NCBI RefSeq assembly: GCF_000015045.1
Contig: NC_008609.1
Coordinates: forward strand, 3,771,501 to 3,835,500
From: Pelobacter propionicus DSM 2379
Lineage (GTDB): Bacteria > Desulfobacterota > Desulfuromonadia > Geobacterales > Pseudopelobacteraceae
Length of the DNA: 64,000 bases
Reading direction: 5' to 3'
Below, in pieces: positions 8,888-31,447 of this stretch. The first letter of the stretch is position 1; every line of letters starts with the position of its first letter. The notes beneath the pieces are model-generated. The model worked only from the letters and a program-made list of their open reading frames with translations, was not told the DNA's origin and did no database searches. A program made the position numbers and the translations under genes.

Positions 8888-9200
8888 CAGCGACGAGCGC
8901 AAGGCTGCCGCCATTTCCTACAAGCAGGGCTATTACGCGCCGGTGGTGGTGGCCCGCGGCAAGGGGGTCATGGCAGAGGCAATCATTGCCTGCGCCCGCG
9001 AGGCAGGAGTTTATATTCACGAATCGCCGGAACTGGTCCAGCTGCTGATGCAGGTTGACACGGACCAGTTCATCCCGCCCGAACTCTACCGGGCGGTGGC
9101 TGAAGTGCTGGTGTGGCTGTACAGGATGGAAGCGGAGACCGGGGGAACGCACCCCATTGACCGCGAACGTCATGGCATCGCCGGCATGGAATCAGAGTGA
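8874..9200 (+). CDS. FlhB C-terminal-domain-like export switch protein, stand-alone
   Basis: A 108-residue protein that aligns with the cytoplasmic tail of FlhB: both have APVVVA(K/R)G, then MA(E/Q)AI, IPxxLYxAVAEVL and a Y/R-rich end. The membrane domain is absent. The autocleavage motif NPTH, present in the true FlhB at 30377, is also missing: the sequence begins near the point where cleaved FlhB would start, reading KAAAISYKQGYYAPVV. It therefore resembles an already processed FlhB tail. The ATG at 8874 lies inside the preceding FliK-like gene. A role as partner or modulator of the type III export gate is inferred from family and pairing; a separate function is possible. Confidence 0.8.
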   Translation: MTNPDSDERKAAAISYKQGYYAPVVVARGKGVMAEAIIACAREAGVYIHESPELVQLLMQVDTDQFIPPELYRAVAEVLVWLYRMEAETGGTHPIDRERHGIAGMESE

Positions 9201-29578: not shown

Positions 29579-30373
29579 ATGTTTCCTCTGCTCCCCTTCC
29601 CTTCCCAGCGGGAGATCATTCTCTTTGCGCTCGTGCTTGGCAGGATGGCGGGGATGTTCAGCGCGTTACCGGTATTCGGCGGCAAGCGACTGCCGCTGCA
29701 GATCAGGGTCGTCGCCGTGATGGCGATGAGCCTGATCTGTTTTCCCCTTTTGAACGTGAATGCACCCAATATACCCGACGACACTATCTCCCTGGCGTTG
29801 CTGGCGCTTCGTGAAGTCATGATTGGCATTACCCTCTCCTTTGTGACCCAGATCATCTTCTCAGCAGTTGAATTCAGCGGGCAAATCATAGGCATGCAAA
29901 TGGGATTCACCATGGCGGCGATAATGGACCCGACCCACGGCACCCAGAGCCAGGTCATGTCGGTAATGCAAAGTCTTCTGGCCACGCTGATGTTTCTCTG
30001 CATGAGCATTCACCACCTGTTCATTCGGGCCATTGTTGACAGCTTTCACATAATTCCCCTTGGCGTCTGGCATCTCAACGGAGAAATAATAACCTTCCTC
30101 ACCAGGGCAACCGCTGATGTTTTCGTTCTCGGTGTTCGACTGGCAGCTCCGGTAATGGTTGCACTGCTGCTCACCAGCGTGACGCTCGGCATCATGGCTC
30201 GCTCTTTCCCCCAGATGAATGTCTTCATGATCAGCTTTCCACTCAATATCGGAATTGGATTTATCATTCTTGGTGCGACACTGCCTATGTTCTTCCATGT
30301 TCTCGAGGTGTCGTTCGGTTCCGTCAAGGAGCAGATTGATACAATATTCCGATTAATGGCAAAGGGGGGATGA
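29579..30373 (+). CDS. fliR: Flagellar export gate protein FliR
   Basis: A 264-residue polytopic membrane protein, the single-copy subunit of the export channel. It has about six hydrophobic segments; GRMAGMFSALPVFGGKRLP and the GQIIGMQMGFTMAAIMDP block are diagnostic, as is the PQMNVFMISFPLNIGIG end region. It starts four bases after fliQ. The flhB reading frame opens directly after its stop. Confidence 0.96.
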   Translation: MFPLLPFPSQREIILFALVLGRMAGMFSALPVFGGKRLPLQIRVVAVMAMSLICFPLLNVNAPNIPDDTISLALLALREVMIGITLSFVTQIIFSAVEFSGQIIGMQMGFTMAAIMDPTHGTQSQVMSVMQSLLATLMFLCMSIHHLFIRAIVDSFHIIPLGVWHLNGEIITFLTRATADVFVLGVRLAAPVMVALLLTSVTLGIMARSFPQMNVFMISFPLNIGIGFIILGATLPMFFHVLEVSFGSVKEQIDTIFRLMAKGG

Positions 30374-30376
30374 TTC

Positions 30377-31447
30377 CTGAGCCAGGACGCAGACAAGCAT
30401 TCCAAAACAGAGCAACCCACTGCAAAAAAACTCGAGAAATCGCGGGAAAAGGGTTCCCCGCCCACCAGTATCATGATGACCTCCACCTTTACCCTGATGG
30501 TTGGCATGATCTGTCTGTACGTATTCGGCAGCTTCATGATGAGCAGCATTGAAAGGCAAAGCGAAGAGATCCTGGAAGGGGTGGGCAGCTTCGAACTGAC
30601 CGAGGGGAATGTATATCTGCTTGTCCTGAAGCTGTTCTTTCTCATACTGGTTGTGCTTGCTCCCCTGGTTGTAACGGTCATGCTGACCTCGATTGCCTCC
30701 CATGTGATTCAGGATGGAGGAAGGTTCGAATTCCAGTGGCAACGCGTGACATTTGACATTACCAAGCTAAACCCCCTCAACGGATTCAAGCGGCTGTTCA
30801 ACAAAACCGCCCTTGTCGAGATCCTGAAATCCTTTCTCAAATTAGTGGTAATCGGCTGGATCGCTTATCGTGTGCTCAAAGACGAGGTCCAGAATATCGC
30901 CCTGCTGGCAGATGCGGACATGGTTGGCATACTTGCCTACATGGGGCGCGTTGCATTCAAGATAGTTGTGCACACATGTGGAATCATGCTCATTATTTCC
31001 ATTCTCGACCTGATGTACGTCAAATGGAACTATCTTGACGGGCTCAAAATGACCAAACAGGAGGTCAAGGATGAGCACAAGGAACAGGAAAATCCCGAGA
31101 TAAAGGGACAGATCAAGAAAATGCAGTATCAGGCAGCCAAACGACGCATGACTAAAATCATCCCCACGGCCGACGTTGTCATCACCAACCCGACCCACTA
31201 TGCCATTGCGCTAAAATATGACCGCCAGCGAATGATTGCTCCCGTGGTGGTGGCCAAGGGGGTAGATATCATGGCCCAGGCAATCAAGAAAATCGCGCAG
31301 GAGAGCAGCGTCACGCTTGTGGAAAACCGTTTCTTGGCACGGGAACTTTATGACCAGGTCGAGGAAAATGAGGCCATCCCCGAAACACTCTATGCTGCCG
31401 TTGCGGAAGTGTTGGCGTATGTGTATCGCCTCAAGGGGAAGACCTGA
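30377..31447 (+). CDS. flhB: Flagellar export switch protein FlhB, probably with a CTG start codon
   Basis: A 356-residue export-gate protein with four membrane helices and a cytoplasmic tail that self-cleaves at NPTH (Asn271-His274) to switch substrate class. The first in-frame ATG is at 30473, but starting there would remove the conserved cytoplasmic N-terminus. That N-terminus is encoded in frame from a CTG at 30377 (SQDADKHSKTEQPTAKKLEK), eight bases after AAGGGGGGA. Between the fliR stop and this point there is no ATG, GTG or TTG in frame. The family nearly always begins with a KTEQPTxKKLE-type motif, so CTG is the most economical start. The tail carries APVVVAKG and IPETLYAAVAEVL, which recur in the stand-alone protein at 8874. 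Confidence 0.9.
   Translation: MSQDADKHSKTEQPTAKKLEKSREKGSPPTSIMMTSTFTLMVGMICLYVFGSFMMSSIERQSEEILEGVGSFELTEGNVYLLVLKLFFLILVVLAPLVVTVMLTSIASHVIQDGGRFEFQWQRVTFDITKLNPLNGFKRLFNKTALVEILKSFLKLVVIGWIAYRVLKDEVQNIALLADADMVGILAYMGRVAFKIVVHTCGIMLIISILDLMYVKWNYLDGLKMTKQEVKDEHKEQENPEIKGQIKKMQYQAAKRRMTKIIPTADVVITNPTHYAIALKYDRQRMIAPVVVAKGVDIMAQAIKKIAQESSVTLVENRFLARELYDQVEENEAIPETLYAAVAEVLAYVYRLKGKT

Follow-up and report, generated by a model that had tools for sequence, protein, structure and literature searches.

The classic case of a gene with a non-canonical start codon is infC, which specifies IF3 and has an AUU-type start. To our knowledge, very few bacterial genes, infC and sigR, are documented to have a conserved non-canonical start with a role. 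In Streptomyces, sigR starts with GTC (GTT in 2 of 34 species) downstream of a conserved AGGAGGTG and is repressed by IF3; a canonical codon at this site leads to overproduction (PMC5472188). Judged by its sequence, the flhB gene of Pelobacter propionicus is of the sigR and infC kind in its anatomy, but wider in genera. Its nearest precedent is sigR (PMC5472188), with which it shares a conserved non-canonical start, a conserved extended ribosome-binding site, membership of a two-gene pair with balanced products, and misannotation by gene finders. In sigR, these traits are seen in one genus, with GTC or GTT at the first gene of the pair and with IF3 control demonstrated; in flhB, in contrast, they extend over nine genus groups, with CTG, ACG or TTG at the second gene of the pair, a Shine-Dalgarno (SD) sequence placed inside fliR, and IF3 control as a hypothesis. 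In infC as in flhB, a strong SD precedes a codon of a kind disfavoured by IF3; infC, however, is autoregulated by its own product, whereas flhB specifies a component of flagellar export that takes no part in initiation. No paper linking FlhB to a CTG start was found in the open-access literature, which is an incomplete collection, so that priority is not established.

The window analysed, a 64,000-nucleotide stretch of P. propionicus DSM 2379 DNA, contains fliR (29579..30373, + strand; TIGR01400 214.7 bits, cut-off 168.6) immediately 5′ of flhB. The final fliR codons are ATG GCA AAG GGG GGA TGA, and the stop TGA (30371..30373, +) lies in the frame of flhB, such that the two genes occupy one frame split by a single TGA, a point absent from the earlier note. 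The codons 3′ of this TGA read TTC CTG AGC CAG GAC GCA GAC AAG CAT TCC AAA ACA GAG CAA CCC ACT; their CTG (30377..30379, +) is the proposed start of flhB, which from there specifies 356 aa (30377..31447, +). Inside the last fliR codons lies the flhB SD, AAGGGGG (30362..30368, +), contained within AAAGGGGGG and nearly invariant in the family (the sequence of 30361-30370 is AAAGGGGGGA). An ATG out of frame with flhB, likewise absent from the earlier note, overlaps the fliR TGA (30370..30372, +) and is not the flhB start. The fliR stop and the flhB start are 3 nt apart in almost every family member and 4 nt apart in L007, a very short distance of the type found in translationally coupled pairs. 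Such distances couple translation by termination-reinitiation, and subunits of one complex are over-represented among genes so spaced (PMC10666635). Pairs of this sort (PMC10666635, PMC6728339) resemble fliR-flhB, in which the start lies 3 nt past the stop and the partners belong to one complex; typical coupled pairs, however, overlap by 4 or 1 nt and have a canonical start, whereas fliR-flhB has a distance of +3 and a weak codon. A conserved RNA hairpin was sought at the junction and none was found (–1.7 kcal/mol, zero covarying pairs).

As the earlier note had stated, the flhB frame contains no ATG, GTG or TTG before the ATG at 30473..30475 (+), 32 codons past CTG 30377, and this ATG acts as a false start for gene callers. 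The intervening sequence includes a conserved coding N-terminus (DKHSKTEQPT..., 30392..30472, +), which ATG-based annotation drops. When read from the CTG, the product is a full-length FlhB with the N-terminal KTE-P-T motif, scoring 368.8 bits with TIGR00328 (cut-off 349.25) and 381.9 with Pfam PF01312; when read from ATG 30473 it reaches 334.4 bits with TIGR00328 and falls below the cut-off. In the 27 codons running from D6 to the first ATG, differences are found mostly at third positions: two congeners differ there at 2, 1 and 14 sites at codon positions 1, 2 and 3, respectively. This protein-level constraint, together with the match between the residues before ATG 30473 and the N-terminus of FlhB from outgroups that start with ATG, makes it scarcely credible that ATG 30473 is the true beginning of an FlhB shorter by 32 residues, even though this is the first canonical start in its frame. 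The N-terminus is, moreover, important for FlhB function, and the region that would be lost includes residues that are functional in the Salmonella protein (E11 and P28; PMC7064499). The start of flhB is thus placed, with near certainty on this comparative evidence, at CTG 30377. As a separate observation, the window contains at ∼8898-9140 (+) a second, short FlhB-like gene comprising the C-terminal switch domain only, in an open frame of 154 aa; this short paralogue is present in nearly all family members.

The homologous site was compared across the GTDB family of P. propionicus in 67 flhB loci, representing nine genus groups (among the members are Trichlorobacter, Oryzomonas and Geobacter sp. 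H7geo), with one genome per species, except that G066 contributed two loci. The codon was CTG in 35 loci, ACG in 29, TTG in two, ATG in one and GTG in none; CTG or ACG, neither of which is an ATG, GTG or TTG start, therefore occupies the site in 64 of the 67. The ACG start is confined to one genus group, which includes three species that are back at CTG. By comparison, fliR begins with ATG at 40 of the 41 loci from the family. In the other families of this order, the corresponding flhB codon is ATG (MSDDKHSKTE, MADEDKHSKTE), and Geomonas and Citrifermentans have ATG there as well. The 67 family loci and 16 relatives that use ATG bear out both the proposal that CTG is the flhB start and the accompanying warning that annotation limited to ATG, GTG and TTG removes the conserved N-terminus. 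The earlier note had also allowed for a sequencing error creating or hiding a normal start, and for relatives with ATG at the site. The former is excluded by the presence of the same arrangement in dozens of independently sequenced relatives; the latter are found outside the family, where ATG is the ancestral state, and not inside it, with the exception of L061. The pattern AAAGGGGGGATGANNN(A/C)(C/T)G was matched exactly once in each of 55 genomes out of the 76 from the family, with no genome matching it more often, and by-eye comparison showed these matches to coincide with the flhB coordinates. Editing of TACG from A to I by TadA at the ACG starts was considered and rejected, the product being GCG, which is no better start.

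Two loci from nominal family members were set aside from the family set as probable foreign or contaminant copies. The flhB of L038 (G007; 52% identity) has ATG and clusters with outgroups, and that of L085 (G063; 37% identity) also has ATG; both resemble the flhB of other families, which looks like horizontal exchange or bin contamination. Of the two loci of G066, L051 and L082, one is of the CTG type and lies near another genus group, and the other is of the ACG type; given 9% contamination, this suggests a mixed bin. In Selenomonadales (L103, L104, L108, L113 and L117), flhB has a conserved N-terminus, F-N/D-LQ-FA-GEKTEEPT, with no ATG, GTG or TTG close by; the nearest in-frame canonical start is 20–35 codons upstream of it. 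This could reflect a leader that is long and variable, or a further unusual start, and because of the upstream canonical codons no claim of an unusual start is made.

The shared frame of fliR and flhB in P. propionicus, with one TGA between them, raises the question of whether readthrough or recoding of this stop could yield a FliR-FlhB fusion, such fusions occurring naturally (PMC7064499; NF009411). Gene order and, in P. propionicus, reading frame are like those of the fused genes of the Clostridium type (NF009411), from which the present locus differs in that stops separate fliR and flhB, doubled or accompanied by a frame change in several relatives, so that the genes do not form one uninterrupted frame. 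Two stops stand between the genes in L023 and L071 (TGA TAA), L066 (TGA TAG) and L032 (TGA TGA), and L007 has TAG plus a change of frame; these double stops and the frame change rule out a readthrough fusion, for which we leave only a very small probability. In addition, the codon between stop and start varies freely, and a column limited to CTG, ACG and TTG would make no sense for an internal residue. The idea of a conserved leucine inside a fusion is ruled out by codon use and by ACG: CTC, CTT, CTA and TTA are frequent at the true leucine columns of FlhB and never occur at the start site, and ACG specifies threonine. A start at the out-of-frame ATG 30370 followed by a frameshift into flhB is, for its part, extremely improbable. 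This ATG is missing in L004 and L051 (GGC TGA), L007 (GATAGA) and L067 (GTGA), lies only 1 nt from the SD, and opens a frame that terminates after four codons in many ACG species. The ATGA overlap is a frequent coupling arrangement and the G run appears slippery, but the frameshift at the G run was rejected together with the start at ATG 30370.

The CTG start is preceded, 8 nt upstream, by AAGGGGG, which pairs with CCUCCUU of the anti-SD (with one G.U), taken here as the canonical sequence. Calculated against this assumed anti-SD, the SD energy in the family averages –11.1 kcal/mol (range –11.6 to –7.9), that is, an extended SD conserved at the proper spacing, compared with a mean of –3.4 kcal/mol (range 0.7 to –7.2) in the 16 relatives that use ATG. 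The family thus appears to have exchanged a weak SD and ATG for a strong SD and a weak codon. This compensation is not strict, since L032 retains CTG with a weaker SD (AAAGGGGTGA, –7.9 kcal/mol). The sole ATG species in the family, L061 (G064), has AATGGGGGG (–9.3 kcal/mol); its reversion to ATG coincides with this altered SD core and with the replacement of Lys by Met in the tail of FliR, ATG and SD damage together being a single case.

To follow the codon through the family, a FlhB tree was built without the start columns, and directions of change were assigned from the outgroup and by parsimony. The four codon states require five changes on this tree: one between ATG and CTG on the branch leading to the family, a single switch from CTG to TTG, one from CTG to ACG at the base of a genus group, a return to CTG in three species of this ACG group, and a single switch from ACG to ATG. 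Every state except the lone ATG is one mismatch away from ATG. Since the change from ATG to CTG is seen once, the link between the gain of the SD and the loss of ATG is an unreplicated association. Counted inside the family, the start codon has 3, 3 and 0 changes at its three bases, while 42 fourfold flhB columns change on average 21 times each (range 7–31); that the start codon changes so much less than these sites argues that selection acts on the weak codon. In the 34 members that do not belong to the ACG group, each of the 25 fourfold columns with a majority of C also contains A or G, while at the first base of the start only C and T occur; inertia therefore does not explain why ATG and GTG are missing. 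From these comparisons, selection appears to maintain the weak flhB start. It might be argued instead that the CTG or ACG start is genuine but its weakness unselected, ATG having been lost by accident and rescued by a strong SD that brought flhB output back to about its ordinary level. SD compensation of non-AUG starts is indeed a known trend, reported for GUG and UUG (PMC5622118), and in L032 the strength of the SD varies while the codon stays. Start codons, however, usually drift towards AUG (PMC5622118), and with ATG and GTG a single substitution away, their appearance would have been expected repeatedly, as A or G did appear in every comparable neutral C column; the flhB codon changed from CTG to ACG and later returned to CTG without settling on ATG. 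An unselected weakness is consequently considered unlikely, though less so than any of the other alternatives.

The unusual start does not reflect lax initiation throughout the genome, of which no sign was seen among the conserved genes of two comparisons (104 and 47 genes). When 400 kb of P. propionicus was compared with 400 kb of the complete relative G015 (104 conserved genes), flhB alone had a homologous N-terminus extending well past the first ATG, GTG or TTG (33 residues, 25 identical); the other genes flagged looked like noise from leaders or overlapping genes, with the canonical start aligned. When 200 kb of two ACG-group genomes was compared (47 conserved genes), flhB once more stood alone as a convincing case (30 residues, of which 27 are identical). 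A second gene of P. propionicus, located outside the window, is built similarly. This is infC (locus L226, G000:C3:2488798-2489295, – strand), whose frame lacks ATG, GTG and TTG throughout its first 60 codons, ahead of the conserved IF3 sequence. Its junction reads CCCAGGAGGTGCAGTC ATA GCA AAA CCG, and it appears from this sequence to start at ATA behind a perfect AGGAGGTG SD. In this organism infC and flhB have the same architecture, a strong SD followed by a non-canonical start.

The position of the flhB start, the states of its codon, its SD and the selection on it are established by sequence comparison; a low rate of synthesis, coupling to FliR and control by IF3 are what we infer. In the mechanism proposed, the near-cognate CTG 30377 would be decoded by the ordinary initiator tRNA, initiation being enabled by the near-perfect SD that lies 8 nt upstream in the last fliR codons. 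On this view, the pairing of a strong SD and a weak codon 3 nt past the fliR stop had a single origin at the base of the family, from ATG with a weak SD, and has since been kept by selection, the codon moving among CTG, TTG and ACG and almost never to ATG or GTG. Since each export gate contains one FliR and one FlhB (one FlhB per FliP5Q4R1; PMC7064499), 3 nt separate the flhB start from the fliR stop, and CUG is weak (its output in E. coli is 0.86% that of AUG, and it makes up 0.024% of bacterial starts; PMC11497404), the likeliest purpose would be to keep FlhB synthesis low and dependent on the translation of FliR. The near-perfect SD could partly offset the weakness of CUG, and the FlhB start would be subject to discrimination by IF3 in the manner of infC and sigR. 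The suggestion of the earlier note that a rare start limits FlhB dosage is thus plausible, and it is indirectly backed by the selection against ATG and the compensating SD. On balance, a near-cognate start that is under selection, holds FlhB low, is tied to FliR and is probably IF3-sensitive is considered a probable reading. The more far-reaching proposal is of a deliberately weak, one-mismatch flhB start acting across the family as an IF3-sensitive, FliR-coupled dosage device, switching among CTG, TTG and ACG while selection forbids ATG and GTG, with ACG as a natural conserved start in ∼29 species; it is advanced tentatively, at somewhat less than even confidence.

For the family, the immediate consequence is that gene callers restricted to ATG, GTG and TTG truncate FlhB throughout. 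The flhB case covers nine genus groups and includes ACG, and the identity of its codon shifts while the codon remains weak; a codon that shifts and yet stays weak is evidence, from comparison, that selection can favour weak initiation as such. The flhB gene would also offer a clean test of a start codon setting the amount of a subunit present once per machine.
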